Shown here: positions 1,976 through 64,000 of the stretch, one piece after another
Numbering within the stretch: the first letter of the stretch is position 1
Layout of the letters: each line of letters begins with the position of its first letter
Translations under genes and position numbers: made by a program
Source: Loxodes magnus
Taxonomy: Eukaryota; Ciliophora; Karyorelictea; Loxodida; Loxodidae
DNA: 64,000 nt
Direction: 5' to 3'
Assembly: GCA_946699065.1 (NCBI GenBank)
Contig: CAMPDV010000925.1
Span: 1-64,000 of the forward strand
The notes under the pieces: generated by a model
Databases searched by the model: none
The model's input: only the letters and a program-made list of their open reading frames with translations
Told to the model about the DNA's origin: nothing

Positions 1976-2674
1976 TCAATTTTCATAATTATCAAGTAAA
2001 AAATCTACTATATCTTGGTGGCCTTTTTCTTGGGCTATGTCTAATGAATTTAGGCTATCTTAATTTTTCTGATAGAAGTTGACTCCTTTAAGGTGAAGGT
2101 ATTTTATTAATTCGATGCTTCCTGAAAAAACTGCAAAAATAGCGCAGTAATCTCCTAGTTTATTAGGCAATATTAAATCCATGCCTTTAGACTCTAGTCA
2201 CTTAACTGTTTCTAATTTTCCAGCTCTGCAAGCTAAATGTAACGCATTGTTTCCAAGTGAATCCGTTAAATTAACATCAGCTCCTTTTTATTCAACTATA
2301 TACTTCAAAACAGTGTCGTTAGGATCCATAGTTTCAGCTACTAAATGTATAAGCGCTTTTCCATCCAAAGACTTTTATTTAACAGGTTCATTAATACTCC
2401 TACTGTCGATTTGCAACTGAATAATGACATCTTCTATAGCTTAAAGATTTTGTTCAACAATAGCATTATAAGCACTTTTGTATAAGTTTTTATCCTTTTC
2501 TTTTTGAGAACTAGTAGGAGTTCTAGCTATATTGGACTTTTTAGTAGGACTTACATCTTTGCTATCTTTTCCCGTTTATTTTCCTGGAGATGACTTTCCT
2601 TAGCTTTAGTTTCTATATAGCTCAAGTAATAAGCTTTTACGCTTTTATCCTGGTATTTAATTCTCACTTTGCAT
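1976..2674 (-). CDS. ankyrin-repeat protein
   Basis: A 232-residue protein read with TAA/TAG as Gln. The first 95 residues are a polar, Ser/Lys/Gln-rich leader. About four ankyrin repeats follow, at roughly residues 100-132, 136-164, 169-198 and 203-232. The clearest has the core NNALHLACRAGKLETVKWLE, and the last ends DIVDFLLDN. Ankyrin repeats bind partner proteins, and no catalytic domain is present, so the role is probably as an adaptor; the partner is unknown. The chosen ATG is the one in frame with the repeats. Another ATG upstream at 2820 is in a different frame. Codon 159 is TGA (2198-2200), at a Trp/Tyr position of the repeat (VKW or VKY), so I read it as Trp. The gene ends on TGA at 1976-1978. 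The full frame holds over 233 codons without a shift. Neighbours are non-coding, so it is a stand-alone gene. Confidence 0.85.
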
Positions 2675-5080: not shown

Positions 5081-5094
5081 AGCTTAAAAATTAT

Positions 5095-6155
5095 ATTCTG
5101 CATAATAATAGAAGCAAATTACGAATAATGCTTCTATGCAAAAAAATAAAAAAGCTAAATAGGAAAATGTAACTGTCACGAAAAAGAAGAAGTAAGAGAA
5201 GAATAATGTGAATAAATAATTGTGCCTTTTGTTTTATTAAGTAGGAAAATAAATAGGAATTTGTTAGCATTCGTTCTGCTATTAATGCTTGCAAGAAAGA
5301 TTTATTGACTAATTTAATGGATATTTGAATTAAATGGAATCAATTAAGTGTGTTTATACAAGCAATATTCTGATTAATTTTATTAAAAATGCGTATGGTA
5401 CTTTTAAATTTGAACTAATAATTTGTCCTTAAAAAACTAATAAAAGTTAATAAAAAAGTATTTACTAACCTTGCTCAAAGTTGTAGTGCGAATTTTCTTG
5501 TACAAAATACAATTTAGACGAAGCTATAAACTTATAAAACTGTGGTCATAAATTTTGTGTTAGTTGCATGAAGATTTAATTAAAAATTAAAATTTAAAAT
5601 GCTTAGGCTGATTCTACTTAACTGATATATCCAAATAATGGTTTTGAAAAATCTATAAATCTGGGGTAAGTATAAATTGTGCTGCTGGAAGATTTAGATT
5701 TATTATAAATATAAGTTAGATTTTAGATAGATAGAGCAAATGCAATTAAAGGCAGAACGTTGGTGAGATGTTCAAGGCCTAGCTGCAACTAGCGAATATA
5801 TATTAGTTTGGATGTGTAAGCTGTCCTATGCGATAAATTCACATTTGATTTAGGTCCAAGGTACTTTAACTTCCACATCTTAATAAAAATAGTGTTAAAT
5901 ATGCGTAAGAGAAAGTAAATTATTAGCAAAAATTAAAAATGGGAGAAAATCTAAAAAGAGAAGAAGATCAATAAATGTTCTAAAATTTAGGTTTTAGCAA
6001 ATAATTAAAGAAAATAATTTAAAAACATGTCCTATCTGTACAACTATATCTGAAAGAGCTAAAGGTAGCAATAAATTTACTTGTAAAAGCCATATTTTGC
6101 AAAAGAGAATAGTAGTTTGGCTATATTTGTTCTTGAAGGAGGAAAGAATGTAAAC
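5095..6155 (+). pseudogene. RBR (RING-between-RING) E3 ubiquitin ligase relic
   Basis: Read with TAA/TAG as Gln, this stretch has the order of an RBR ubiquitin ligase. At about 5250-5350 there is a Cys/His cluster with CQHSFCYQCLQE. At about 5485-5600 a RING1-like block contains NCGHKFCVSCMK. At about 5745-5850 an IBR-like block contains IKGRTLVRC followed by PSC. At about 6025-6110 a RING2-like block contains KTCPICTTISE. RBR enzymes take ubiquitin onto a RING2 cysteine and pass it to substrate. Several zinc ligands are missing: the Cys-Pro-x-x-Cys after RING1 is reduced to YPNNG, and the second half of RING2 lacks its Cys pairs. RING2 also lies in a different frame from the IBR block. I therefore call it a decayed gene. 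The extra N-terminal RING-like block could be a tandem remnant. Start and end are approximate. Confidence 0.6.
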
Positions 6156-11280: not shown

Positions 11281-11345
11281 TAATAAATAAATTCGATTAT
11301 AGAGCGCGTAGCAACTCGTTGGTGCGCAGCTCTTTAATAAATATT

Positions 11346-14300
11346 TCAATACATGTCTATTTCTTCAAGTAAGCCTTCAGGTAATAAAAATTCTTCTCTT
11401 ATTAGTTCCATATCTTCATCATTTTCTTCTTCAACATCTCTTGTTCTTCTGTCTTCTATCTATCTACGTTTTATTGATTCTTTGTTACAAGCGTCCATTA
11501 TTTTTTTTACATACTTTGCTAATTTTCGTTTCTAATTATTTTCTTCTTAATCAAGCTTTTATAAACTCATAAAAATTATCCTTTTCCTGCTCTATAATCT
11601 TTTCCTATTTCTTTTTTCATTCAATTTTCTTTTCTAAGTATCTTTTTTTTCTTTTTTCTAATATGTTTTTGATATAATCTTTTATTATCAAGTCAGTTTT
11701 AGCTCTTTTTTACTCTTCTTAGGTTCTAATGAATTTTTCGAATTTTGTCGTACCTCATATTATTTCAAATAGTTCCATTACTTGTCTTTCTACCCCTATT
11801 GTTCTTAACTTTCTAATACATATTTATCTACTTTCTTTGCATTCTGAGCATTTTTCTATGATATGCCTTTCGTTTTCTCTTGCATCATTACAGAAAGGGC
11901 ATTTGCTTGTCGCAACTAGGTGTCTTTCTTTTAAACAATTCTGGCTCCCATTAAATCTCATTCTTATTCTAAATATGTAGCCTATTTCTTCTTTTCTATT
12001 TTTATTGTATCTCAGGTAGTTGGGTGGTCCTACTACATATTCATCAAATCATGTTTTTCTATACTGTAGAGTTTTTATCATTTACTCTATTCTTTCTCTA
12101 TCTTCTACGTATACTCTATGTTCTAAAATTGCACGATTAATGTTTTTCTTCCCTTTTTGATTATTATTACCATCATCTATAAATATATTTTTGTCTTCAA
12201 TTTTTAATTCTAATTTTATTGTCGTGCAGTATTGTTCAAAAATAAAGTTCTCTTTTTTACTTAGGTCGAACATTAATCCATCTACTGTTTTTCCTTAGTT
12301 ACCTATTAGTCTGCCTCTTAATCTCAGCGTTTTCTGCCATAGGTAATGTTTAAATTTCATAAACTGTAACTCGTATTCTAGCATCTCATTTTACACTTAG
12401 AAAGGGGCATCTATGATTGCTCGTAAAGATCTTCTCTATATTATTTCTAATTGTTCCATCACTTATTTTCCTACAAATTATTCACAATATGGGATAACTT
12501 CTGTCCCATAGCTGAATACTGAGCTTACGAACGTTTTTATCATTATTCCTGCATTATATGGTGTTAATCCCTTATTCATTGTTATTTTACCCAGTATTCA
12601 TGTTTACATCTTTTATGCTGCTTCTAGTCTGTTCTCCATGTGTTTTTCAAAGCTGATGGTCTCTTCTATTATATGCCCTAGGTACTAAAAGGACGTTACT
12701 CTTTCGATTCTTAAATTTCCCACCTCAATAGTATTGCCTATATTTTCTCAGTTTCTATTTTCTACTGCTTTTCATATCATTCATTTTGTTTTATCTGCAA
12801 TTTCCAGTTTTTATTTTTCTGTCCATGAGGTTAAATTTTTGATTACTTCCTCTAATTATTCTCATTCACTTATTAAGGCTAGGTCATCTGCATATGCAAA
12901 ACATCCTTCATATATTTCTTGTGTTCATCCCTCTTCGTTTTTAAAGTCTATCGTAATTCCTAGCTTTTAATCTTCCAAGCTATGGAGAAGTCTTGCTATT
13001 ATTAAGTTAAATAATCTTGGTGACGTTATGCTTCCCTGTTTTAGTCCTTTATTTGTCGCGAATGATTTTGCTATTTATTCGTTGATTTTAAGTTTAATTT
13101 CTTCTTCACAGTAGAAGTTTGCTAGGAGTTTAATTATCTATTCCGGTACTTTTAGATCTTTTAGGATTTATCATATATCTTTTCTTTGCACCGAGTCGTA
13201 CGCTTTCTTAATATCAACAAATATTACGAAAACATCTTTTTTGTTCCGTATTGATCATTCCTATACTGTTCTTAGGTTGAAAATTTATAGTGAACATGAT
13301 TTTCCTTTTTTAAAGCCATATTAATATTCGCTTTCATCATTATGCAGATATCCTTATAGTTGCTAGAAAATTCATGCATCTACTATTTTTAAAGCATGAT
13401 TCAGTAAAGAGATTGGTCTATAATTCATCGGGTTCATCTGTCCTCCTTTTTTGTATATTAATACTATGTATTATTATTTCATCTCTTAAGGTATTACTCC
13501 CTCTTAAATCATCTTAACTGTCATTTTACATGTTACTTCTGTTATTTTTTCCCTGCCTGTTAATATTGTACCTACTTGTATTTCATCAGGTCCTGCTGTT
13601 TTTCATTTCGCCAATTAGTTGATGATTTCTCAAATTTCATATTCGTTTATCACTATTTATCTCTTGTTTAAGAATTTAATTGGTAACGTATTATCGGCAT
13701 CTTCATATAGTTTCTACCATTCATCCCTGAAAGTATTAACATCTTCTTTTAATAAGGATACTCATTAATTATTTTTTCTATTAAGTAAGTTTTTTAGTTT
13801 CTTCCACATATCTGTTAGACTTCCTTTATTTACATTGTCCATAAATAGGTTTAGTTAGTTTCTTTTATCTTTTTTTCTTGATTAAATGTATTCTTATCTT
13901 ACTCTTTGGTATTCTCTTTGATTCTCATTTTATTGATTTTCATTTATTTGTTCACTGTTCTTTACCCTTTATTTTAATTGTTGCTGCATTTTCTAAAGAT
14001 TTTATTACACTATTTTGTTGTTTCTGAATATTTATATATCTTAGAGTTTTATGTTTTAAATTTTCCACATACTATTTAAACTCCTTCTTATATCTTTTTC
14101 TTTCATCATTTATAAGTCTATGTGCCGTTTAGGTTATCAATTTCTTCTTCTTAGAGATTTTCTTGTATAAATCTTTCAAATTTTTCTTATATCTCTTTTT
14201 TCTTTAATAGTAGGTAGTTTATTTTTGCTATCTTTTATGGCTTTCTTACTTCTTTACCCATCTTTACCTATATAATACCAGGCCTATGGTCACCTATTAC

Positions 14301-15870
14301 GTATGAGTAATAAAAATCACTCTTTAACACCTTTTCTCTCATACTCTCTTCGATTAAAAAGTAATCTATTTTATACTCATTGTTTTAGTGAATAAAGGTA
14401 CCTATTTCAGTTGGGTCTAGGCATATTAAATTATTCTGTTCCATAAACTGTGTCATTCTCTTTCCTGCTGAGTTTGTTTTCTTTGGCAGTCATTTTTCTA
14501 TGTGCGCATTTCAGTCTCCTATTATCATTATATTAAGTCCTTTTTCTATTGCTTATAGTTTAAATTCATTCACTAAATTATAGAAAGGCTCATACTGTTC
14601 GTTGTTATTTGCAACAGGAGCGTAGACATTTATTACTGCTAATTATTTCATTATTTCTATTGCCATTACTCTCGCTCCTCCAAAGAGCGTCATTTGGTTT
14701 ACTTCATTCTATATCTCTCTGATCTCCTTACATATGTCGTTTCTAATATAGAATGCTACTCCTTTTCCTTTTTTTGATCCCACATTTATTAAGTTTTTAT
14801 ATCCTGCTATATTACACATATCTTTTTAGTCTTCAATCTAAATTTCTTATATTGCCATTATGTGGATACTTTTTTGAGTCATGAATTTGGCTAGTGCCTC
14901 TTTTGCTCTTCTTACTCCCCTAACATTTGCTGTCCCTATTTTTATGACTTATTCTTAATCTTTTTTTACACTCATTCCCTCTACTTCCTCTTCACCTTAT
15001 TCTTCTTTTTATTCATCTTCCTTCTCCACCTTTTCTTCTTCTTATCTATCATTCTATGCTTCCATATTATTTTTTTTATTAGTTCTTTCCCCTTTTTTGT
15101 CTTTTTCATCTTATTATCTACCTTTTCCTTCTTCTTATCTATTCTAATCTTCTTCTTTTTCCTTTTCCTATTAGTTGAAGTCGGATAATTGTTCATTTTT
15201 GTTTATCGGTTTCTTAGCATAGTACATTCTCATTGAAGTTCGCTTCAATTTACTTCTTTCTTCTCACTTTTATCTTGCATCTTATTCTTTTTCTTCTTGA
15301 GTTTGCTCTATTTCTTTTTGCTTTTTTCCTTTATTTACATTTTACCTGACATACTCCATTATACTATTTTGTTTATTTCTTATTTCTTTTGTTAGGGTTT
15401 AGCGTTTTTACCATCACCTATCCTATCCTTTTCTCTAATTTGCTTTATGGTATATTTTATTATTTAGTTGATTGTTTTTTATTTAATTTAATTATTTGAA
15501 CATTTCTCTATCCCTCTGTCTTACATATGTCCAATTCCATTTTGATGAAAAATAATTTTTATTTATTCTTTTAGCATAAAAAACTTTTTATTATTTAATT
15601 GTTTAGTTGTTTTAATTATTTTTCTATTCTCCTAATTTTATTTACTTCTCTTCTTCCCTTGATTCCTCTATAATCATTTATTCTTCTTCTCCAATTATCC
15701 TCTTATTTGCTTGATTTGCTTCAAAATCTGGTTTGTTTATTGTTAAAATAACTTCTCCTTCAAGTATCTCTAATTCTCTTGTATGTAACTTTTTCCTTTT
15801 TGCTGCTTCTACCCTTCTGCATTGCTGGTCTGTGTGCCCTTTCACTTTACATAGGCAGTAGATAAAATTT
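11346..15870 (-). pseudogene. LINE ORF2: CCHC knuckle, APE endonuclease, reverse transcriptase
   Basis: From the 5' side (15870) it starts with the CCHC knuckle CLCKVKGHTDQQC, which runs in one frame through a long Lys/Glu/Gln-rich linker into the endonuclease at about 14975-14280. Visible endonuclease motifs are TANVRG, AIQEIQ, NVYAP, GDWNAH (its Trp is TGA) and GDHRPG. The linker at about 14150-13800 changes frame more than once. The reverse transcriptase (about 13780-12880) shows MNYRPISLLN, VFVIFVDIKKAYDSV, GLKQGSITSPRLFN and FAYADDLALIS. A C-terminal CPFC...H...C region lies near 11880. The ORF closes on TGA at 11346-11348 after an acidic tail. It nicks target DNA and copies the element RNA. 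Whether the knuckle belongs to ORF1 or ORF2 depends on a one-base shift at about 15870. Confidence 0.85.
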
Positions 15871-17864: not shown

Positions 17865-18455
17865 AAATATCTTATTCTATTGCTTATTTATAAATTTAAG
17901 CTTTATTATTTAAAATTGATTATCAAATTAATTTTGGTTAATTATTTAAAGTAGTAAAATTATTTTTAAATAACTAGAATAAATATTATAAACAAATTTA
18001 AAATTAAATAAAAATAATTAAAACTTTAAATATTATTTAAATAGTTTGATACAAATATAAAGGATTCTAATTTTTAAAACCTAAATTTTTGAAATTTTTA
18101 ACTATTATTTAAAGTGATCTTTTAAATACATCTTTAAATTAATTAATTTTAATTTTTCCTTAAGTAAATATAAACTTATTTTCAATGCAAAAAATTTTAA
18201 TTTTTGCTATTTTAATAAATTAAATTAAATAGTGATTCTAGCTAAAAGTAATAAAAATTTTAAATTTAAAGATCATTTATGCAAGTTTTGAATTTACAGT
18301 GGAAAATAGTTTTTGTTGCTTCTAAAATAGAAAATGCTAGTAGAATATTATCAAATTAGAATAATCATGTTGTTATTATTTCTTTAAAAAAAACTTATAT
18401 TTATATGTTTAAGCTTTAAATTATTAACTATTTATAAATTTAAGTTTTTTAAAGT

Positions 18456-20317
18456 CAGTATGCATAAATAAACATTTCTTCTTTCCAATTTCCTAAAGTT
18501 GAATCGAAGTTGTATATCTTTTATCCGTCATAAACCAGGAAATATACTTCTTTTTATTTGTTAAAATTTTCATAATTAAGTGAGCTTTAATTGCTAGGTC
18601 CTCCAATATATTTTTCACCAATTTCAGTGAAAGGTTAATTTTCGCTTTCATTGGTAAATAAATATGTTTTATCTAAAAAGGGTCCAAAAAAATAAATTTT
18701 GCTGCTAAATTCTATGATATTAATTGCAGATCCATTTGGAAGGGTATTTTGATAAAAAATTCAAGTTTATAGAGCTTAATTAAAGATCTATATAAATGGA
18801 ACAGCAATGCAATTTTATTAAACTCCCCCTAGCACATATATTAATCCATCTTTTATAAAGCATCCAAAGTTTTTAACTGGTTAGGGAATTTCTTCAATTT
18901 ATTTAAAAGATTCTGTTCTAAGATCGAAATATTCACACTTTTATTAGTCCTAATTTTCATCAATATTTCCAGAAATAAGATATAAAGCTTATTATTATTA
19001 ATCTAGTGCCATTCCATGACTATTCCTAGGAAATATCATTTAATATGTAAACTCCACTTGAAGATTTTTTTGATTTATTTTTTAAAAGTTTCTCTATATA
19101 TATTCCTAGCTTTTACCACCTGAAACAAAGATTTCTTTTTCAAAGTGAAATATGCTACTATAATTATCTAGTTAGATTTAAGAAGAGAATATTGGTTCTT
19201 ACGTAAAGTTAGTTCCTTTTTAAACAATAATTGTATTAATATCCTTTAAAAAATAACTACCAAACTAAGATAACTAACTTAGAAAATCTGCTTAACTTGT
19301 ATAACTACTTAAAGTTTCACTATTCAGTTATAAGTTTGAATAAAATCTTTCATAAATTGGAATTTCTGGTTTATAATAGCTTTTTAATGAAATAATCTCC
19401 TGCGTAAAATCTTAGATAGAGCATCTCATTTCGGGTTCGTAAACGAAGCATTTTAGTAATAGTTACTCTAGTCTTTCTCTGCTATTAATCACATCGTTAA
19501 ATTAGGGTATTTACTTTTTATCTTTTACATGATATTTTATATAAGATTCTTTTATATTAGCCCATGGAACGCTTTCGTTAAAAATTTCCAAAGCAAGACA
19601 CGCTAAAGCTCAAATATCTGACTATTTATAAAAGAGGTAATCAAAACATTCAGGTGCAAATCAGTTAATTGAACCTCTTCCCTTCGAACTAAAATATTTT
19701 ACAGCATCAGTAGTCAGTCCCAAATCAGCTACCACTGGATCATATGATTCGTCTAAAAGTATATTAAGTGATTTAATATCTCGATGTATTAACTCTGCTT
19801 CATGTATAGCGACAATTCCTTTGCTAATTTAACTTAATAACTTCAATTTCCTTCAAAACTTAACTTCTTCTACGGCTTCTTCTTAAAACAGCTGCTTTTT
19901 CTAAATGATTTAATATAAACTCCCTTTTTAATACAACTTTGTAATTGAACTCAAAGAAAAGTCATTTACTTCATTTCTAATTGCTATTCCCTCAAGGCTT
20001 AATACTCTTTTATGATTAACTTTTAGAAGGCTATCTACTTCCTAATAAAAGTCATTTATTATCTATTACTTTTAATTGTATTTTTGCTTTATTATTTTAA
20101 GAGCATATTTATTTCGCTAAATCTCAATTTCATAGACATCGGCGAATCCTCCATCTCCAAGTTTTTTAAGATTATTCATTACTTGATTATTAGGTATCAG
20201 ATCTATTAAATCGAATATTAAAATATTCTTAGATGTCTAATTTCTTTTATTCTTTACCAGTTCTACAATATCTTCAATAGTATAATTCTTCTTATTAGTT
20301 GTGAACTATTTTTCCAT
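18456..20317 (-). CDS. protein kinase-kelch protein, left-arm copy (3' frameshift)
   Basis: This is the inverted duplicate of the gene at 55152-57014 and is nearly identical to it. It carries the same kinase domain, the same kelch-like half and the same four in-frame TGA codons at Trp positions. It is 1862 bp to the homologous TGA, one base shorter than its twin. The missing base is near 18480, where one copy reads GGAAAGAGAAATG and the other GGAAAGAAGAAATG. Only the last eight or so residues are affected, but the frame then runs past the normal TGA. Missense differences exist too, for example Glu to Val just after the DLG motif. Both halves of the protein could still fold, so it may be active with an altered tail, or be the start of a pseudogene. 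Confidence 0.85.
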
Positions 20318-20524
20318 ATTTTATAAACCTGACTAATGATTTCTTTATTTAAATAAGATTTTTGTTTGATTGAAGAATTAAAGAACTTATAATAATTTCC
20401 TTTATAGTTATCCTTTCTTTCAAATTAAGTACATTATATTATGCTAATAAGCCAGTCTCTTTAGTATTCAAATATTTAAACCTTATAAACCTAATTATTC
20501 TATTTGTAGTCACTTTTTATTTTT

Positions 20525-20960
20525 ATTATATATATAAAATGGATGTTTGCCGTGCCAGATTAATTAGTAGGTAATCTGGTCCAGTGTATACTGCATTGCG
20601 AGTAATCTCGCACTAGATGCCACCACAAGGAAGAGAGGTTAAGCTCCGTTGAGACATACCTAACTTACCCCGAATGTTCTCTCTAGCAGTATGAAAGTTT
20701 GACTGACGCACCCGAATGACTTTATAACTAATTCTTATTTGGATCTTATTCAAGAAGACTGAAGCATTTGACTCAAGATTTAAGAATAATTTTGAATAAG
20801 AAGATTCCCCATTTGGAGAATCTGACATGATTCATTGGACTTCTAGAATTTTAACAAGAAACATGAGAACATTTTTCTTAATATTAAATATTAATATTGA
20901 AAGAGCTGCGCGCCAATGAGGTGCTACGCGCCTTATAATAATTTTGATTTATTTATCTAA
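20525..20960 (+). mobile_element. hairpin-tailed short retroposon (copy in left arm)
   Basis: It begins with TATATATAAAATGGATG and ends with the LINE-type tail (agagctgcgcgcc...gctacgcgcc, then TTTATTTAT). The body is GC-richer than its surroundings and has two short perfect hairpins: CCAGATTA/TAATCTGG at 20563-20587 and TGCGAG/CTCGCA at about 20596-20611. The same body occurs at 42918-43370, about 75-80% similar with indels. The right-arm twin is 54509-54945. A reading frame with TGA as Trp runs from the ATG, but the other copy does not keep it, so an RNA-type (SINE-like) element is more likely than a coding one. The frame that opens on the other strand is an artefact. Confidence 0.75.
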
Positions 20961-22309
20961 TTTTATATGACATATGACTTATTAATCTAATCTCTAGTTT
21001 GATAAGAGCATTTCTATTTAAAGCAAAAATTTCTAAATAATGTATCTAAAAAATGAAATTATGATTGTTATTTTACTAATAAAGAGAATGACTTTAGTAT
21101 TAAAGAACTAATTTATCTATATACTTACTCTTTTTATAAGAATTTTCATCTATCAATTTTATTTTACTAATTTATCTTTAAAAGTTAAAAGTCAATAGAT
21201 ATTTATATTTCCAAAAATTAGCCTTTACATCTTTGTATCTAGAGAAAGTTTCCTTTTGAATTAAAGGTCGGAATAGATTTTTATTAGCATAATTTTATAG
21301 TTAAGCCTGCTATATCTAAAAATATTTATAAAATTGCATTGTTTACTTTTACAACATTTTTCCTATATATTATGCCTGATTAAGTTAGTCTATTTAAAAT
21401 AGGTTTTTTATTATGTTTTTTAATTTTTTAACAAATTAGAATCTCACCAGTATCTTTTATAATGACGCTGCTTTTGAAATATATAATAGCGCATTTTTCT
21501 TCTTATACTTTATTACTATTCATTTATTTCTACATCTATAGGTACAATTACTATCATCCATTTATTTATATAATTTCTTATTATTGTGCTTATTTTTCTA
21601 AAAGTTCTTTATTTAATATTGGAACTAAAAAAACTAAAATTGAAAATTAGAGGGATTTAATTAATATTTCTTCAATTTTATTTATATATCATTTATAGCT
21701 ATATGTTATTTATTGCATTATCTTTTGATGAAAGTTAAAGACTTAGTTCTTTCCCTATTTTTTCTTATATATTATCTAATTTTTCAATCTTTAATTTTTG
21801 TTGCTTTCATTTTTAATGCAGATCTGATATTCTTTAATGGAATGATTATAAAAAGATTGCTAAGATCATTTTCCTTTATTTTATAGAGGTAATTATTTAA
21901 TTAAATTAGATTAGTATTCTTAATTTTTTACTATTCATTAAGAGAGATCTTTTATTTCTTAGGTGCTATTTTATTCTAAAGATTTATATTTAGAATTTAA
22001 AAGTTAGCAGATCACTAGTCTATATAAATAGACTTTCTTTATATTTTAATTAAACTTTTAAATAGAAAATTAAAATAGCTATATAGTACTTAGGTATTAT
22101 TAACTATATAATATTCATTTATTTTTTATTATTCTAATAAGATTCATTTAACTACATTTTATTTCATTCTCCTTACTACTCAATTTTTAAGTTAATTATT
22201 TATAATTCTATATCCCAAAAAGATAGCAGAAGATTAAATTATTATTATTATTTAAAATTGTTTAACAGCAGTACATCACTGCCATTTCAAATAAGTTTTT
22301 AAATAAAAG

Positions 22310-23085
22310 TCTTTTTGATTGCTAAGGTCTTTGTCATTTCTTCTCTTCAGTTCATATATTCTTTAATTTTTTTAATCTTATATATATTTCCTTCGTCAAA
22401 TGACTCCATTCTTGTTGCAGTATAGCTGCTCTCTCTTCTTTATTCTTATTATTTTGCTTAATTCTAGCAGTTCTTATACAAGTTTCATTTGCTTTTATAA
22501 AAGTAACATCATTTTCTAATTCTTAAATCACGATTCATAACCTTCTGTAGTCCCGTGATTTGATGTCTATGTTGCGGTTTACTAAGTTATGTTAACTTAA
22601 GATATTCCTATGACTCTATATTATTTTTTCAATCTACTTGCTTTTTTTAATATTCTATATTTAGGAGTTTGACTTGCTGAACTATTCTCGCTGATATGTC
22701 CATAAGATATCAAGCTCCTTCTTTTGGTTAGACATTCTAAGGTCTAGTATATCTTGAAGTCCATGCTAGATCTATTCTATCAGCTTTTTGTTCTCCTTAC
22801 GGAGCTTCTTAACCTCTTCCTAGAGTTTAGTACTACTTTAAGGAGCTATTCCATACTCATCGAACTAAAGGATTTAATTCTGCAACTTTCTGGTATAGGG
22901 CGGACTTCTCTTACTTCCTCGATTTCTTCTCCAAATTTGGTGACAATTTGGCATGAGTCATATCTAGCAGTTTTTTCTACTCCTCATAGTTCTGCTTCAT
23001 TCAGGCTCCTATTTCCTGGTAGCGGGAAAGAATCCCTTTCTGAAGTACGATATTCTTTTTATTCAGAAGTAAAGTAATTTAAGAT
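22310..23085 (-). mobile_element. ORF1-only retroposon (left-arm copy)
   Basis: This is the inverted twin of 52384-53160. Read on the minus strand it encodes a coiled coil (KKFHKENKKLIEQIQHGL) and then a degenerate zinc knuckle in which one Cys is Tyr and the His is Asn. The plus-strand frame that opens with MKSMLDLFYQ is the antisense shadow of this ORF. Confidence 0.65.
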
Positions 23086-23375
23086 TAAAGTTTTTATTGA
23101 ATAAATAAGCTTTTAAAAGTAATGTTTTTATTATATATGGAAATAAATATTTCTAAAATAATTTAATAATGCATGTAGATTTTTCTATTATCATTAAATA
23201 AATTAAAATTATTGCTATTTATTTTAAGTTTCTGAAATTCTCAAATTAGCTTTACTATTACTAAATTATACTAAACAAATTCTTAACTTCTTAAATAATA
23301 CCAGTATAAATAAGATACAGTATCAACTATTTTTCAAATGCAGTGAGTTATAAAAAGATGTTTGGATAATTTGTT

Positions 23376-24610
23376 GTAATAATACAATTTTCTTGTCTTG
23401 AAAGTTTTAGGTAAACTTAAGTATAATAATTAAAATAGAATATTAATTTACTAAGTTAATTCAATATTAAGAGATAATTAACTATCCTAGAAACTTTTAC
23501 CTATATCAAATATTTATTAATTTCTTTCCTTATTTCTATCATATTTATTATAGCCAAATATTAATAATTTTATCCATAATTTGCTATTTCATAATTATTA
23601 TATTTTATTTAGCTTAAACTATATATCTTTATCAGTTAAATTAGGATTATATTAAGCTAAATTATTATAATTTTGTAAATTTTAATTTCAAAAGGCAGCA
23701 AATTTAGCAGTTATTTTTAAATATAGTTATTATTTAAATTAATATATTTAATTATTAAACTATTAAATAACCATATTTAGTAGTAAAGTAGTTTAAGATT
23801 TATCTATTTATAAATTTATTTAACTACCTGCTTATATTTTACTATATGAGCTTATTAGTTAAGTCTTCTTACTTATTTTACTTTTAATAATCTAACCTAC
23901 ATTTTTAAAGCTTCTTATTTTGCTTATTAGTTAGTCTCTTTATAATTCCTAAAATTCTGCAAAACTTATAAAATTTAATCTTACAAATAAAAAGCTTAAT
24001 ATTGCTTTACAAAGGTATAGTTTCTGAAAATATTATCAAACCTTTAATTATTTTTTTAGTTCTTCTTCATCAATATTATTATATTTGTTGAAAGTATTAC
24101 TTCCCAACTAATAACAAATTAAATAAATCCTTCTTTATTCGTATATATATAATTTCATTTTCTCGGATTTAGAAGTTTCCTTGCTTATTTAAACAATTTT
24201 AAGAGGTCAATTAATTACTTCTCTGTTTTTAGCCTATTTTTACTTATATTATCAGTAATTACGCTTAGGCCTATAAAACTTTTTTATCTTATGCGAGCTA
24301 TATTACTTCCTAATTTGGTTTTTCCTTCTATATAATTACATTCTATAAAGCTATTTATGGTTAATTGTCAGCATTGAAGCAATTTATTATGATTGAAGGA
24401 AGTGTTTTTAATTAGTAGCTTCTTATATATTTAGTATTAAACGAAGTTAATATTTAGATTACTAGTAAATAATAGCTATAAAAGAGTAATTAATTAATAC
24501 TTAAATTTTTGCTTGATACAGGAGAATGATAATAATGTAATTTAAATTAAAAGCTAACTCTATTTAACTTTAGCCTATTAATAGCTTTTAGTTATAAATA
24601 TAGAAAAATT
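23376..24610. other. AT-rich sequence inside the duplication spacer
   Basis: It starts exactly where homology to the right arm stops. No gene or repeat copy was recognised. Confidence 0.4.
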
Positions 24611-46253: not shown

Positions 46254-48320
46254 TTAAATAGTGTTATTTGTTATTTTCATTAAGAAATCCCAGGATAATA
46301 TCTATATTCTTAAATCATTTATATCTTTATAGTCTAGCATGTTTATTGTAGGCTCAGCTTCTTAATAATTCACTGTAAAATCAATTAGTTTGTAGTTTTA
46401 AGTTAATTTTTCTTGGTTTAAATGAAATCCATCTAAAGGAATTGGATGTATATTTTCTTTATCTCTCCAACTAACATGCTTACCGCGAGGGATCTAAGGA
46501 ATTACAAAAGTTTTTCTCAAATTTTTACCAAAATATTAAAGCATCCTTATTGGTCAATCACATATAGAGAATATAGACTACAAATCTGATCACATATAAT
46601 TAGGAATTATAAAATTTCAAGTTCACATCACTTTATAAAAGTTGACTTGAAATAGAGTACTTAAATCACTAAAATTGTAAGGATAGCTAGTAATCATTGC
46701 AGCACATACTCTTTTTCCATATTTCTAATTATGGAGAAATTTTTTATTTATTCATTTACTATATTAAAAGAAATCAACTGATAAAGGTACATCTTCTTCC
46801 AAGTAAACTACTGACTTCGCTTTTAAGAGTCCCAATGAAATATTGAACAAAAAATACGCATTTGAAACGCATTTGTACATTTTGATTTATTATATATCTT
46901 AAAATACTGATGGAATTTCAGGTTCAGGATGTAAAATGTGAATAATATTCAAATTACGCTTGTTTTTAAAGTGCTAAATTACTTTTTTAACGTTTTCAAC
47001 TTTTTCGTCTTAAGAAATAATTATAATAGTCTGATTAATTCCATCAGCTTTCTCTAAAGATGTCAAAACTTCTTTTAAGACTTCATATCTTCTAAAAACA
47101 GGCATTATTATTGGATATAAATCTTCTACATTAAGTTTAAGACGTTTAATAAAAGCTTCGTATTATTCTTGAACAGATTGATAAATATCAGGAAAATATT
47201 ATTAGGGATTTAACATATCACAATCCTTCTCTTTGTACTAAAATAAAGGAGTAAAATTAAGTTCATTAAATTATCCAAAGTGATATTGATTAATTCGAAA
47301 AATATTAGAAGCCTGAACATATTTAGGCTTCTTTCTCTTTTATCCATAGTTATTGTAATATTCTTCTTTAACACTCATTTAATCAAAAAATCCAATTACA
47401 CTACTCTTAAATGTACCACCTGGAGTATTTTAAAACTAATCTAAAGTTTAATATTCATTTTGAATATAAAAATGCTTAAACTCAAAAAAATTATAGTTTC
47501 TAACTATTTCTAGGCAACTTTACTTAACACTTTATTTTTCAATAACTTAAGCTCCAATTCTAAAACTTCTTCCTGTCTACATTAATCGGTAATAAGATTA
47601 GCCAAATACTGAAATTACTTTTTCATTTATTCTAAGCTAAACTTTAGGCTTCAAAGCATTTTCTTATTTTTCAAAGAAAGAAGTTCCGAAAGCTGTTAAT
47701 AAGATTTAAATATTATATCACATATTTTGTTTTATTTCTACGTTACTAATATTAAAAGTTTAACATCCTTTATCAGATCCTGTCTCAAGAATGATTACAA
47801 ACTTATTTTATTCATTTTAATTTTAAGCTAAATACAAGAAATAGCCTCAGTAATCACTTCAAGCGCCACATCCTAATACTTTATTCCCAAGTATCGAGTA
47901 ACGCTTCTATTAATGTTACTAAAAATTTGCAGATTCCTATTAATTTAAATCAATAAATGGTTCTTATTTTTCCATCTAATTTAAATCAAATTTTATCCAT
48001 AAAGAAATAGTAAGTTCTGGAAAATCAAAAGAACTAATAGGACCATGAACTAAAAATTACTTATCTGGCTGCAAGCTTATTAACAAGCCCTATTCAGTTT
48101 GATCTTATAAATTCAATTCTTAAGTCTCTATTTTTATTATTTGCTCAAATCCTTCATTTTAATTTTAACTATCATTTTTTAAATCTGTTATACTCGTCTC
48201 AGTTATGCTAGCATTCTTTTCTATAGTTGTATTGTCTAAAAGTGAGAAGAAAAAAAGAAGAATAAAAAAGCCTAGCAATAAAAAGATTGAAAGAATATAA
48301 AATTTCTTAATTTTATCCAT
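46254..48320 (-). CDS. GT13-family glycosyltransferase (MGAT1/POMGNT1-like)
   Basis: A type II membrane protein of about 688 residues. It has a short cytosolic MDKIKKF, a membrane anchor at about 8-28 and a stem. A lectin-like (LamG/ConA-type) region at about 85-250 contains FPELTISLWIKFDL. The catalytic domain starts near 400 with PIIMPVFRRYEVLKEVLTSL, has an acidic metal/nucleotide-sugar motif YLEEDVP (EED at 508-510), and a CDWPIRM...FVIPQIPRGKHVSW stretch matching the DW and IIPDVSRxxHFG region of the family. The family moves GlcNAc from UDP-GlcNAc onto mannose in the Golgi. Eight in-frame TGA codons read as Trp, including the conserved Trp at 589 (46554-46556); three other Trp are TGG. 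No in-frame TGA follows for several hundred bases. The end given is the first TAA after the conserved region and is uncertain; a TGA lies one frame off at 46277-46279. Confidence 0.82.
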
Positions 48321-52093: not shown

Positions 52094-52383
52094 ACAACAA
52101 ATTATCCAAACATCTTTTTATAACTCACTGCATTTGAAAAATAGTTGCTAATGTATCTTATTTATACTGGTATTATTTAAGAAGTTAAGAATTTGTTTAG
52201 TATAATTTAGTAATAGTAAAGCTAATTTGAGAATTTCAGAAACTTAAAATAAATAGCAATAATTTTAATTTATTTAATGATAATAGAAAAATCTACATGC
52301 ATTATTAAATTATTTTAGAAATATTTATTTCCATATATAATAAAAACATTACTTTTAAAAGCTTATTTATTCAATAAAAACTT

Positions 52384-53160
52384 TAATCTTAAATTACTTT
52401 ACTTCTGAATAAAAAGAATATCGTACTTCAGAAAGGGATTCTTTTTCGCTACCAGGAAATAGGAGCCTGAATGCAGCAGAACTAAGAGGAGTAGAAAAAC
52501 TGCTAAATATGACTCATGCCAAATTGTCACCAAATTTTGAGAGAAATCGAGGAAGTAAGAGAAGTCCGCCCTACACCGGAAGGTTGCAGAATTAAATCCT
52601 TTAGTTTGATGAGTATGTAATAGCTCCTTAAAGTAGTACTAAACTCTAGGAAGAGGTTAAGAAGTTCCATAAGGAGAACAAAAAGCTGATAGAATAGATC
52701 TAGCATGGACTTCAAGATATATTAGACCTTAGAATGTCTAACCAAAAGAAGGAGCTTGACACCTTATGGACATATCAGCGAGAATAGTTCAGCAAGGCAA
52801 ACTCCTAAATATAGAATATTAAAAAAAGCAAGTAGATTGAAAAAATGATATAGAGTCATAGGAATATCTTAAGTTAACATAACTTAGTAAACCTCAACAT
52901 AGACATCAAATCACGGGGATTATAGAAGGTTATGAATCGTGATTTAAGAATTAGAAAATGATGTTACTTTTATAAAAACAAATGAAACTTGTATAAGAAC
53001 TGCTAGAATTAAGCAAAATAATAAGAATAAAGAAGAGAGAGCAGCTATACTGCAACAAGAATGGAGTCTTTGACGAAGGAAATGTATATAAGATTAAAAA
53101 AATTAAAGAATATATGAACTGAAGAGAAGAAATGACAAAGACCTTAGCAATCAAAAAGAC
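52384..53160 (+). mobile_element. ORF1-only retroposon (right-arm copy)
   Basis: A coding frame runs from about 52390 with an N-terminal Ser/Arg-rich part, a coiled coil (KKFHKENKKLIEQIQHGLQD) and a helix ELDTLWTYQREQFSKANSQI. At 52960-53000 is the degenerate knuckle CYFYKNKWNLYKNC, with the second Cys and the His replaced. It is the twin of 22310-23085. No reverse transcriptase is present. The frame is open for about 200 codons despite the damaged knuckle. Confidence 0.65.
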
Positions 53161-54508
53161 TTTTATTTAAAAACTTATTTGAAATGGCAGTGATGTACTG
53201 CTGTTAAACAATTTTAAATAATAATAATAATTTAATCTTCTGCTATCTTTTTGGGATATAGAATTATAAATAATTAACTTAAAAATTGAGTAGTAAGGAG
53301 AATGAAATAAAATGTAGTTAAATGAATCTTATTAGAATAATAAAAAATAAATGAATATTATATAGTTAATAATACCTAAGTACTATATAGCTATTTTAAT
53401 TTTCTATTTAAAAGTTTAATTAAAATATAAAGAAAGTCTATTTATATAGACTAGTGATCTGCTAACTTTTAAATTCTAAATATAAATCTTTAGAATAAAA
53501 TAGCACCTAAGAAATAAAAGATCTCTCTTAATGAATAGTAAAAAATTAAGAATACTAATCTAATTTAATTAAATAATTACCTCTATAAAATAAAGGAAAA
53601 TGATCTTAGCAATCTTTTTATAATCATTCCATTAAAGAATATCAGATCTGCATTAAAAATTAAAGCAACAAAAATTAAAGATTGAAAAATTAGATAATAT
53701 ATAAGAAAAAATAGGGAAAGAACTAAGTCTTTAACTTTCATCAAAAGATAATGCAATAAATAACATATAGCTATAAATGATATATAAATAAAATTGAAGA
53801 AATATTAATTAAATCCCTCTAATTTTCAATTTTAGTTTTTTTAGTTCCAATATTAAATAAAGAACTTTTAGAAAAATAAGCACAATAATAAGAAATTATA
53901 TAAATAAATGGATGATAGTAATTGTACCTATAGATGTAGAAATAAATGAATAGTAATAAAGTATAAGAAGAAAAATGCGCTATTATATATTTCAAAAGCA
54001 GCGTCATTATAAAAGATACTGGTGAGATTCTAATTTGTTAAAAAATTAAAAAACATAATAAAAAACCTATTTTAAATAGACTAACTTAATCAGGCATAAT
54101 ATATAGGAAAAATGTTGTAAAAGTAAACAATGCAATTTTATAAATATTTTTAGATATAGCAGGCTTAACTATAAAATTATGCTAATAAAAATCTATTCCG
54201 ACCTTTAATTCAAAAGGAAACTTTCTCTAGATACAAAGATGTAAAGGCTAATTTTTGGAAATATAAATATCTATTGACTTTTAACTTTTAAAGATAAATT
54301 AGTAAAATAAAATTGATAGATGAAAATTCTTATAAAAAGAGTAAGTATATAGATAAATTAGTTCTTTAATACTAAAGTCATTCTCTTTATTAGTAAAATA
54401 ACAATCATAATTTCATTTTTTAGATACATTATTTAGAAATTTTTGCTTTAAATAGAAATGCTCTTATCAAACTAGAGATTAGATTAATAAGTCATATGTC
54501 ATATAAAA

Positions 54509-54945
54509 TTAGATAAATAAATCAAAATTATTATAAGGCGCGTAGCACCTCATTGGCGCGCAGCTCTTTCAATATTAATATTTAATATTAAGAAAAATGT
54601 TCTCATGTTTCTTGTTAAAATTCTAGAAGTCCAATGAATCATGTCAGATTCTCCAAATGGGGAATCTTCTTATTCAAAATTATTCTTAAATCTTGAGTCA
54701 AATGCTTCAGTCTTCTTGAATAAGATCCAAATAAGAATTAGTTATAAAGTCATTCGGGTGCGTCAGTCAAACTTTCATACTGCTAGAGAGAACATTCGGG
54801 GTAAGTTAGGTATGTCTCAACGGAGCTTATCCTCTCTTCCTTGTGGTGGCATCTAGTGCGAGATTACTCGCAATGCAGTATACACTGGACCAGATTACCT
54901 ACTAATTAATCTGGCACGGCAAACATCCATTTTATATATATAATA
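54509..54945 (-). mobile_element. hairpin-tailed short retroposon (copy in right arm)
   Basis: This is the inverted twin of 20525-20960, nearly identical. It has the same A/T start box, GC-rich body, two small hairpins and 3' tail hairpin. The frame from 54641 on the plus strand is antisense to the element. Confidence 0.75.
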
Positions 54946-55151
54946 AAAATAAAAAGTGACTACAAATAGAATAATTAGGTTTATAAGGTTTAAATATTTG
55001 AATACTAAAGAGACTGGCTTATTAGCATAATATAATGTACTTAATTTGAAAGAAAGGATAACTATAAAGGAAATTATTATAAGTTCTTTAATTCTTCAAT
55101 CAAACAAAAATCTTATTTAAATAAAGAAATCATTAGTCAGGTTTATAAAAT

Positions 55152-57014
55152 ATGGAAAAATAGTTCACAACTAATAAGAAGAATTATACTATTGAAGATA
55201 TTGTAGAACTGGTAAAGAATAAAAGAAATTAGACATCTAAGAATATTTTAATATTCGATTTAATAGATTTGATACCTAATAATCAAGTAATGAATAATCT
55301 TAAAAAACTTGGAGATGGAGGATTCGCCGATGTCTATGAAATTGAGATTTAGCGAAATAAATATGCTCTTAAAATAATAAAGCAAAAATACAATTAAAAG
55401 TAATAGATAATAAATGACTTTTATTAGGAAGTAGATAGCCTTCTAAAAGTTAATCATAAAAGAGTATTAAGCCTTGAGGGAATAGCAATTAGAAATGAAG
55501 TAAATGACTTTTCTTTGAGTTCAATTACAAAGTTGTATTAAAAAGGGAGTTTATATTAAATCATTTAGAAAAAGCAGCTGTTTTAAGAAGAAACCGTAGA
55601 AGAAGTTAAGTTTTGAAGGAAATTGAAGTTATTAAGTTAAATTAGCAAAGGAATTGTCGCTATACATGAAGCAGAGTTAATACATCGAGATATTAAATCA
55701 CTTAATATACTTTTAGACGAATTATATAATCCAGTGGTAGCTGATTTGGGACTGACTACTGATGCTGAAAAATATTTTAGTTCGAAGGGAAGAGGTTCAA
55801 TTAACTGATTTGCACCTGAATGTTTTGATTACCTCTTTTATAAATAGTCAGATATTTGAGCTTTAGCGTGTCTTGCTTTGGAAATTTTTAACGAAAGCGT
55901 TCCATGGGCTAATATAAAAGAATCTTATATAAAATATCATGTAAAAGATTAAAAGTAAATACCCTAATTTAACGATGTGATTAATAGCAGAGAAAGACTA
56001 GAGTAACTATTACTAAAATGCTTCGTTTACGAACACGAAATGAGATGCTCTATCTAAGATTTTACGCAGGAGATTATTTCATTAAAAAGCTATTATAAAC
56101 CAGAAATTCCAATTTATGAAAGATTTTATTCAAACTTATAACTGAATAGTGAAACTTTAAGTAGTTATACAAGTTAAGCAGATTTTCTAAGTTAGTTATC
56201 TTAGTTTGGTAGTTATTTTTTAAAGGATATTAATACAATTATTGTTTAAAAAGGAACTAACTTTACGTAAGAACCAATATTCTCTTCTTAAATCTAACTA
56301 GATAATTATAGTAGCATATTTCACTTTGAAAAAGAAATCTTTGTTTCAGGTGGTAAAAGCTAGGAATGTATATAGAGAAACTTTTAAAAAATAAATCAAA
56401 AAAATCTTCAAGTGGAGTTTACATATTAAATGATATTTCCTAGGAATAGTCATGGAATGGCACTAGATTAATAATAATAAGCTTTATATCTTATTTCTGG
56501 AAATATTGATGAAAATTAGGACTAATAAAAGTGTGAATATTTCGATCTTAGAACAGAATCTTTTAAATAAATTGAAGAAATTCCCTAACCAGTTAAAAAC
56601 TTTGGATGCTTTATAAAAGATGGATTAATATATGTGCTAGGGGGAGTTTAATAAAATCGCATTGCTGTTCTATTTATATAGATCTTTAATTAAGCTCTAT
56701 AAACTTGAATGTTTTATCAAAATACCCTTCCAAATGGATCTGCAATTAATATCATAGAATTTAACAGCAAAATTTATTTTTTTGGACCCTTTTTAGATAA
56801 AACATATTTATTTACCAATGAAAGCGAAAATTAACCTTTCACTGAAATTGGTGAAAAATATATTGGAGGACCTAGCAATTAAAGCTCACTTAATTATGAA
56901 AATTTTAACAAATAAAAAGAAGTATATTTCCTGGTTTATGACGGATAAAAGATATACAGCTTCGACTCAACTTTAGGAAATTGGAAAGAAGAAATGCTTA
57001 TTTATGCATACTGA
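55152..57014 (+). CDS. protein kinase fused to kelch-like domain
   Basis: A 620-residue protein, intact in one frame. The kinase domain spans about residues 45-300. It has a Gly loop LGDGGFADVYE (54-57), the Lys of YALKI (K74), HRDIKSLNILL (H178-D180), DLG in place of DFG (198-200), WFAPE (219-223) and SDIWALACLALEIF. It should phosphorylate Ser/Thr or Tyr; the substrate is unknown. Residues about 340-610 carry kelch-like beta repeats (SGGKS, YLISGN, GLIYVLGGV, KIYFFGPF), probably a protein-binding propeller. Four in-frame TGA codons (W155, W219, W236, W519) fall at Trp sites, two of them near-invariant in kinases; two other Trp are TGG. It ends on TGA. The start is the first ATG of the frame. 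The left-arm copy is nearly identical. Kinase-kelch fusions of this sort form expanded families in ciliates. Confidence 0.92.
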
Positions 57015-57483
57015 CTTTTTAAAACTTAAATTTATAAATAATTAATCATTTAAAGCTTAAACATATAAATATAAGTTTTTTTTTAAAGAAATAATAACAA
57101 CATGATTATTCTAATTTGATAATATTCTACTAGCATTTTCTATTTTAGAAGCAACAAAAACTATTTTCCACTGTAAATTCAAACTTGCATAAATGATCTT
57201 TAAATTTTAAATTTTTATTACTTTTAGCATTCCTTCTAATTTTAATTTAGTTTAGTTTTATTCAGTTAGCAAAAATATAAATTTAGACTCTAAAATAATT
57301 TAAATAATGATCTAAGAAAAATAATTTAAATTAATTTTTATTTTAATTTATAAGGAAGAACTTTGATGAAAATAATCGCTTTAAGTATTAGTTAAAATTT
57401 TAAAATTTAGGTTTTAAACTAAACTCTCTTAAAATAAATTAAATAGCTAATTGTATAATTTAATCTAAGATAAATAATAATAA

Positions 57484-61496: not shown

Positions 61497-62036
61497 TCAA
61501 GCATGGTTGGCAAAGAACTGACAGAAATACCATCTTTTTGTTGTCGCATCGTATACACCTGATACTCCCATATACTTGTTACTTGATAATAAATTGGCTC
61601 GATGTCCACTTGAATTTATCCACTAGTTCACTACAGTTTTTCCTGGATTAACATTATCATAATTATAAGCTACATTTTCTGCACATGATGACCAATTTGG
61701 TATTTTATAGCATCTATCAGAAAATCCATCATGTGATATAGTTCCCTTTTAAATTTAATATGTGTTATGATCTACACATAATTGATACAATAAATCATCC
61801 CATACTAAGTCTACTTTACCTTATGTTCTTCTGAAACTATTTGATTCAGCAAAGGCAGTACTAGAAGCTGAATTGATAACTATCTCTGTCTCAAGGAAAT
61901 CATTTCTTTCTAAGAAAAGTGGTGATTTCGATATAGAAACTGCTGTATCTGAAACTTGCTAACTCTATAATAAATCAATTCTGTGAGATTCTAATGTAGT
62001 TAAGCAAACTAACAATAAAGCAATAGCTACTTTCAT
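61497..62036 (-). CDS. secreted CAP-domain (SCP/PR-1-like) protein
   Basis: A 179-residue protein, one frame, ending on TGA. It starts with a signal peptide (MKVAIALLLVCLTTLES). A Ser/Gln-rich stretch of about 55 residues follows, then a short CAP domain (about 75-179). The domain has DLVWDDLLYQLCVDHN, HDGFSDRC, CAENVAYNY, the CAP signature NSSGHRANLLSSNKYMG, and a final beta strand RWYFCQFFANHA. Histidines at the usual cavity positions are present, and four Cys in the mature domain could form disulfides. CAP proteins are secreted, often bind sterols or lipids, and have no single enzymatic role. All four Trp are TGG, including one 12 codons before the stop. The domain is shorter than the family's typical 140-150 residues. 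Confidence 0.9.
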
Positions 62037-62101: not shown

Positions 62102-62233
62102 TTTTTAATTATATAAAATAACTATATTTACTAAAATTTATTGATGATATCCTTACAACAATATTATATCAATATGAACGCTATATAATTTTAATACTTT
62201 ACAAAATCATTAATTTGATCTAGGAAATTTAAA

Positions 62234-64000
62234 AATTCTTTCTTCTTTTCTTACTTTACTTCATCACTTTTCTAAATTCTTATAACTTCTATTTATCTCT
62301 AACTTTCAGTAAGTCAAAAAAACTGAAATTCTTTCTTCTTTTCTTACTTTACTTCCTCACTTTTCTTAATTCTTATAACTTCTATTTATCTCTAAGTTTC
62401 AGTAATTCTAAAAACTGAAATTCTTTCTTCTTTTCTTACTTTACTTCCTCACTTTTCTATATCCTTATAACTTCTATTTATCTCTAAGTTTCAGTAATTC
62501 TAAAAACTGAAATTCTTTCTTCTTTTCTTGCTTTACTTCCTCACTTTTCTATATCCTTATAACTTCTATTTATCTCTAAGTCTCACTAAGTCTAAAAACT
62601 GAAATTCTTTCTTTTTTTCTTACTTTACTTCATCACTTTTCTAAATTCTTATAACTTCTATTTATCTCTAACTTTCAGTAAGTCAAAAAAACTGAAATTC
62701 TTTCTTCTTTTCTTACTTTACTTCCTCACTTTTCTTAATTCTTATAACTTCTATTTATCTCTAACTTTCAGTAATTCTAAAAACTGAAATTCTTTCTTCT
62801 TTTCTTACTTTACTTCCTCACTTCTCTAAATTCTTATAACTTCTATTTATCTCTTACTTTCACTAATTCTAAAAACTGAAATTCTTTCTTCTTTTCTTAC
62901 TTTACTTCCTCACTTTTCTAAATTCTTATAACTTCTATTTATCTCTAACTTTCAGTAATTCTAAAAACTGAAATTCTTTCTTCTTTTCTTGCTTTACTTC
63001 CTCACTTTTTTATATCCTTATAACTTCTATTTATCTCTAACTTTCACTAATTCTAAAAACTGAAATTCTTTCTTCTTTTCTTACTTTACTTCCTCACTTT
63101 TCTAAATTCTTAAAACTTCTATTTATCTCTAAGTTTCAGTAATTCTAAAAACTGAAATTCTTTCTTCTTTTCTTACTTTACTTCCTCACTTTTCTTAATT
63201 CTTATAACTTCTATTTATCTCTAAGTTTCAGTAATTCTAAAAACTGAAATTCTTTCTTCTTTTCTTACTTTACTTGCTCACATTTCTAAATTCTTAAAAC
63301 TTCTATTTATCTCTAACTTTCACTAATTCTAAAAACTGAAATTCTTTCTTCTTTTCTTACTTTACTTCCTCACTTCTCTAAATTCTTATAACTTCTATTT
63401 ATCTCTAACTTTCAATAATTCTAAAAACTGGAATTCTTTCTTCTTTTCTTACTTTACTTCCTCACTTCTCTAAATTCTTATAACTTCTATTTATCTCTTA
63501 CTTTCTTTAATTCTAAAAACTGAAATTCTTTCTTCTTTTCTTACTTTACTTCCTCACTTTTCTAAATTCATATAACTTCTATTTATCTCTAACTTTCAGT
63601 AATTCTAAAAACTGAAATTTTTTCTTCTTTTCTTACTTTACTTCCTCACTTTTCTTAATTCTTATAACTTCTATTTATCTCTAAGTTTCACTAATTCTAA
63701 AAACTGAAATTCTTTCTTCTTTTCTTGCTTTACTTCCTCACTTTTTTATATCCTTATAACTTCTATTTATCTCTAAGTTTCAATAATTCTAAAAACTGAA
63801 ATTCTTTCTTCTTTTCTTACTTTACTTCCTTACTTTTCTATATCCTTATAACTTCTATTTATCTCTAACTTTCAGTAATTCTAAAAACTGAAATTCTTTC
63901 TTCTTTTCTTGCTTTACTTCCTGACTTTTCTAAATACTTATAACTTCTATTTATCTCTAAGTTTCAGTAATTCTAAAAACTGAAATTCTTTCTTCTTTTC
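62234..64000. repeat. 92-bp satellite, about 19 copies, continuing past the window
   Basis: Tandem units have an exact 92-bp period: actgaaatt starts at 62322, 62414, 62506, 62598 and so on. Each carries a pyrimidine-rich plus strand (ttctttcttcttttcttact) and the block tataacttctatttatctcta. Copies differ by a few bases (about 5%), with recurring variants such as cagtaatt/cactaatt and tctaaattc/tatatcc. The period is not a multiple of three, so it is not coding. It begins about 200 bp upstream of the CAP gene. Confidence 0.95.

Follow-up and report, generated by a model that had tools for sequence, protein, structure and literature searches.

In Loxodes, according to the accessible text of the published description, UAA and UAG encode glutamine, and UGA is, depending on context, either tryptophan or the sole stop codon (PMC11441545). 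The same text assigns L. magnus to NCBI table 27; it also deals with distance to the poly(A) tail and provides a dedicated gene finder (PMC11441545). The dual meaning of UGA is thus already published for this group and hence already explained. The window considered here is a stretch of 64,000 nucleotides of L. magnus (contig CAMPDV010000925.1), and genome-wide searches were run on an assembly of 705,730,643 bases. In both, UGA is tryptophan within genes and stop at gene ends, and the code is real. The initial annotation, made from the letters of the window, had arrived at this reading together with UAA and UAG as glutamine (table 27), and its finding is correct in the main, being supported by the window, by the genome and by the published Loxodes code. 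Features of the window are collected in Table 1. Segmentation of the window by codon usage recovered both copies of the kinase-kelch gene and the LINE, joining LINE stretches that lie in different frames, and fragmented or missed the shorter genes. Further observations in the window are weak RING-finger matches at 4593-6053 (forward strand) and, by self-comparison, a tandem repeat of about 92 bp at 62233-64000, which reaches the end of the window.

Table 1. Features of the 64,000-nucleotide window, with the codons and alignments that bear on the reading of TGA.
Feature	Position	Strand	Remarks
Ankyrin gene	1976..2674	-	One internal TGA (2198); TGA 1976 taken as stop
LINE ORF2 pieces, two frames	11305..15200	-	Endonuclease with GD(TGA)NAH; reverse transcriptase frame
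Second kinase-kelch copy	18455..20317	-	On inverted-repeat arm; same four TGAs
MGAT2-like glycosyltransferase domain	46413..47426	-	Five TGAs: 46752, 46623, 46617, 46590, 46554
Kinase-kelch gene	55152..57014	+	Table 27: 620 codons from ATG, closing TGA 57012-57014
Internal TGA, codon 155	55614..55616	+	Opposite R (CTR1) or H (IRAK4); no Trp site there
Internal TGA, codon 219, before APE	55806..55808	+	Opposite W (CTR1), Y (IRAK4)
Internal TGA, codon 236, DxW position	55857..55859	+	Opposite Y in CTR1 and IRAK4
Internal TGA, codon 519	56706..56708	+	Opposite W of a designed kelch protein
TGA taken as stop	57012..57014	+	Preceding 101 codons without in-frame TGA, preceding 21 without TAA
CAP-domain gene	61497..62036	-	TGA 61497, few codons past the domain, taken as stop

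The frame of the kinase-kelch gene holds four internal TGAs, two TGGs (55905 and 56982) and 48 TAA or TAG codons. Pfam kinase matches span residues 49-306 and cover the TGAs at codons 155, 219 and 236; weak kelch matches lie over the one at codon 519. From position-specific base composition, 9.7 TGAs would be expected by chance in 620 codons, so that their number is uninformative and the evidence lies in their placement. The protein was therefore aligned to solved structures with every stop codon masked as X, CTR1 being the best match. The initial annotation had put all four TGAs on tryptophan sites; the alignment places three of them (codons 219, 236 and 519) at tryptophan or tryptophan/aromatic sites, but not codon 155. 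Two of the kinase sites had also been called near-invariant tryptophans. The structures have W/Y at codon 219 and Y/Y at codon 236 in CTR1/IRAK4; the column of codon 236 is tryptophan in all 21 L. magnus kinases compared. The gene is part of a 5.1 kb inverted repeat (18241-23377 vs. 52094-57228, 98.97% identical), whose other arm holds a second copy. The two copies differ at 15 codons, 13 of the changes being nonsynonymous and two synonymous, which suggests relaxed selection on the duplicated gene. None of the 15 differences touches the four TGAs, so both copies do keep them as had been claimed; at this level of identity between the arms such agreement is expected and the copies are not independent evidence.

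Twenty other L. magnus kinase domains were taken from the genome: the first 20 with one or more TGAs, all of which rank among the top 39 of 136 scored. When these 20, chosen for holding TGA, and the window gene were put into one masked alignment, the DxW column of codon 236 came out as tryptophan in 21/21, written as TGA in 11 and as TGG in 10. Leave-one-out profile inference, with all stop codons masked, was run on the kinases and on the glycosyltransferase family described below. For the kinases, it assigns TGA to W with +75.6 nats, the next residue being Y at -8.8 (30 of the 32 TGAs were usable), and the TGG control gives W at +88.7 nats. Confronted with kinase profiles, as the initial annotation had proposed, TGA thus comes out as tryptophan, near the TGG control.

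Another gene of the window with several internal TGAs gives a Pfam match to an MGAT2-like glycosyltransferase (29 bits vs. a cut-off of 27), GT13 being the label of the initial annotation. Its frame contains eight in-frame TGAs, the five of the domain listed in Table 1 and three more at 47859, 47847 and 47718. The stop-masked domain found no useful solved relative (one chance match, E 0.74), and relatives from the genome were therefore used. MGAT2-like domains form a large genome-wide family, with 119 scored matches including the window's own and many near-identical copies. Eight of these relatives, picked for spread of identity, were aligned with the window gene (n=9). Over the nine domains, the columns of the five window TGAs contain 8 TGA and 1 TGG; 8 TGA and 1 S; 5 TGA, 3 TGG and 1 H; 4 TGA and 5 TGG; and 3 TGA, 3 TGG and 3 F. 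Among the members without TGA, TGG thus occurs in 1/1, 3/4, 5/5 and 3/6 in four of the columns, and in the remaining one TGA is found in 8/9, S in 1/9 and TGG in none. The claim that eight TGAs of this gene fall on tryptophan sites is borne out for the count and for four of the five TGAs of the domain, whose columns hold TGG in relatives, but not for the fifth, whose column is without TGG. Taken together the nine domains carry 45 TGA vs. 19 TGG, and leave-one-out inference over 45/45 TGAs gives W at +78.2 nats, followed by F at +6.4, with W at +48.6 nats for the TGG control. Two caveats belong to the main reading: the tested kinases were chosen for TGA, and one glycosyltransferase column is without any TGG. 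These profiles also bear on the idea that UGA stands for selenocysteine or some other residue in these genes. Three candidate tRNA-Sec matches score above the family cut-off, and UGA may accordingly carry a third meaning in a small number of selenoproteins; in the profile inference, W leads the next residue by more than 70 nats, with Cys outside the top four, which makes such a meaning in the genes considered here exceedingly improbable.

The remaining genes of the window contribute less to the sense meaning of UGA as tryptophan. The ankyrin gene does contain the one internal TGA ascribed to it, but this codon stands opposite V of a DARPin and not opposite tryptophan, and the CAP gene writes its four internal tryptophans by TGG only. 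In the LINE, many TGAs had been assigned to tryptophan, with GDWNAH as the example. The alignments do not bear this out: the TGA of GD(TGA)NAH stands opposite F and a second endonuclease TGA opposite D (in a weak match). The reverse transcriptase frame has 18 TGA and 2 TGG in 732 codons as read; against an R2 protein, the five TGAs of the aligned stretch stand opposite I, Q, M, T and a gap, an unaligned W lying beside the one opposite T. On these alignments, the LINE would be a weak witness for UGA as tryptophan. The TGAs off tryptophan sites (kinase codon 155, ankyrin 2198, two of the four in the actin gene L107, and the LINE TGAs checked) are the contrary evidence. The initial annotation was right about the code but overstated its evidence: no tryptophan is met by codon 155, by the ankyrin TGA or by the LINE TGAs checked, and the arms arose by recent duplication.

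As to termination, the frames of the kinase, ankyrin and CAP genes close on TGA as had been stated (57012, 1976 and 61497), each at a plausible end; in the ankyrin gene another TGA follows two codons beyond. Further evidence comes from genes with conserved C-termini. All five fetched genes of what we take to be histone H3 end in RGERT-TGA, and the three actin genes with the KCF end (L107, L108 and L018) read KCF-TGA, RGERT and KCF being, on our assumption, the canonical ends. Terminal TGAs, with ends read by eye, are also found in the remaining fetched histone and actin-family genes, namely six that are presumably H2B-like and three further actin-family genes. If UGA were wholly reassigned to tryptophan and another signal used for termination, the strong tryptophan meaning would be accounted for; with TGA directly after RGERT in 5/5 H3 genes and after KCF in 3/3 actins, and the other ends agreeing, such a full reassignment has next to no probability. 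The actin gene L107 combines both meanings: a TGA stands right after KCF, and of its four internal TGAs two are opposite W and the others opposite T and G in the top solved actin.

The same actins argue against regarding the frames that hold TGA as pseudogenes or sequencing errors with TGA only a stop, as those with internal TGA stay open to the conserved end. Such decay would fit the 13 nonsynonymous vs. 2 synonymous differences between the kinase copies and the checked LINE TGAs that meet no tryptophan. However, TGA occurs at tryptophan positions in many separate genes (11/21 kinases in one column, nine glycosyltransferases), and random nonsense mutations would not select tryptophan sites, so that this explanation is very improbable. 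The best explanation is, almost certainly, that the window is under the karyorelict nuclear code, NCBI table 27.

Codon usage ahead of the stop was tallied in 20 genes; L106 and L111 are omitted from the tally and both reach a TGA. In the last 20 codons, TGA occurs in 0/400 vs. 13/4720 elsewhere (about one expected, not significant alone), TAA in 2/400 vs. 129/4720 (p 0.0027, the paralogs not being independent) and TAG in 3/400 vs. 65/4720. The rarity of TAA before the TGA stop in these histone, actin and eRF1 genes may be a sign that UAA is still recognized to some extent near the end of the mRNA. As far as the accessible text of the source goes, the published Loxodes pattern is that UGA and UAA become scarce before the stop, whereas UAG does not (PMC11441545). 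Both eRF1 genes (L013 and L014) and the actin-like genes L109 and L112 have a second in-frame TGA 3 or 4 codons past the terminal one. The glutamine meaning of UAA and UAG was read from H3: at six positions which we take to be glutamine, the five H3 genes (30 codons, counted by eye) have CAR in 11 and TAR in 19, and nothing else. For TAA and TAG, leave-one-out inference found Lys best rather than Gln; the control CAA also came out as Lys, as did CAG in the kinases, and since the controls fail as well, this scoring is uninformative on TAA and TAG. The failure probably arises from glutamine columns being mostly coded by the masked codons.

The two factors that would meet at UGA were searched for in the genome. 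Two eRF1 genes lie on contig C196 (L013 and L014). Compared with a solved eRF1, and in what we take to be human numbering, L013 keeps GTS and NIKS and shows E55 to A, T58 to R, S60 to Q, S70 to A and Y125 to F; the translation of L014 has the same letters at these five recognition positions. A literature search of limited coverage returned no paper on the S70 change in Loxodes eRF1.

A tRNA-Trp able to read UGA had been named in the initial annotation as an object for a search of the assembly, and a candidate was indeed found in the gene sequences: a tRNA-Trp(CCA) with a predicted 4-bp anticodon stem, T27 and C43 being unpaired in the ARAGORN fold. Its exact 4-bp-stem arm occurs in 72 copies, all on contig C148, of which 66 form a tandem array with a unit of about 241 bp. 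A wider tRNA-Trp CCA pattern has 125 matches in the genome (54 forward, 71 reverse) vs. 2 for the reversed control; among the matches listed, at least 48 are on C67 and at least 2 on C110, all others being on C148. The matches on C67, at least 48 at positions 482300-491367, are spaced by about 190 bp; 13 of them were read at base 27, and each has A. Among the best 40 of 131 BLAST candidates, at least three genes on C110 fold into tRNA-Trp(CCA) with a 5-bp stem, and a fourth relative of these (L047) was not called as a tRNA. For tRNA-Trp(UCA), one UCA pattern, the counterpart of the CCA pattern with 125 matches, gave 0 matches genome-wide, other tRNA bodies lying outside that pattern. The 4-bp-stem tRNA-Trp of Loxodes is already cited in the accessible parts of two papers (PMC13092985, PMC12005148). 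In the portions of the literature accessible to us, no paper was found on the copy number of the Loxodes 4-bp genes or on the coexistence of 4-bp and 5-bp genes; these are the only two points not met in print.

It is possible, although we consider it unlikely, that gene dosage upholds the ambiguous code, with the large arrays of 4-bp tRNA-Trp(CCA) genes (on C148, perhaps on C67) keeping the sense meaning of UGA and the few 5-bp genes of C110 serving UGG. The two tRNA-Trp isoforms would then divide labour between UGA and UGG, and isoform and copy number might set the balance between sense and stop. On C78, C103 and C158, tRNA-family matches recur at even intervals (about 1753, 527 and 1752 bp), which resembles a tandem arrangement; in the general tRNA search, which scored the best 63 of 42786 candidates, the eight loci taken from other contigs were all tRNA-Lys(TTT). 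These evenly spaced matches suggest that tandem arrays are common, and the tRNA-Trp array alone is therefore no proof of selection for dosage. The C110 tRNA genes (L010, L046, L048, L049 and L050) are nearly alike in their acceptor, D and T arms, whereas the anticodons are CAT (Met), CCA (Trp) and CCT (Arg); with their imperfect T stems, they look like cases of anticodon change or tRNA-derived repeats.

Under table 27, UAA and UAG would be translated as glutamine, and UGA as tryptophan except at the gene end, near the end of the mRNA, where the release factor would beat the tRNA and translation would stop. Directly seen are UGA at tryptophan sites, UGA directly after conserved C-termini, the tRNA genes and the eRF1 changes; from these we infer the competition between tRNA and eRF1 as well as the poly(A) context of the stop UGA. 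For the annotation of this genome, UGA has to be read as tryptophan in genes and the true stop found by context, otherwise kinase and glycosyltransferase genes come out fragmented.

The Condylostoma magnum code, NCBI table 28, has UGA as both tryptophan and stop, as here. According to the accessible parts of the sources, UAA and UAG are also stops in Condylostoma, unlike in L. magnus (PMC4967479), and only the 4-bp form of tRNA-Trp is reported there (PMC13092985), whereas L. magnus has 5-bp genes as well. Loxodes and Parduczia, in the text available from two papers, share the karyorelict code (table 27): both genera read UAA and UAG as glutamine and use UGA, depending on context, for tryptophan or as the sole stop (PMC11441545, PMC4967479). 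No difference from this code was found. Blastocrithidia, as far as the accessible description extends, reads UGA as tryptophan through a 4-bp-stem tRNA-Trp and an eRF1 with Ser70Gly, and L. magnus shares with it the 4-bp stem and a changed Ser70 (PMC12153298). The two differ in that Blastocrithidia, on the same description, stops at UAA, reads UAR as glutamate and has Gly at residue 70, whereas L. magnus stops at UGA, reads UAR as glutamine and has Ala at this position.
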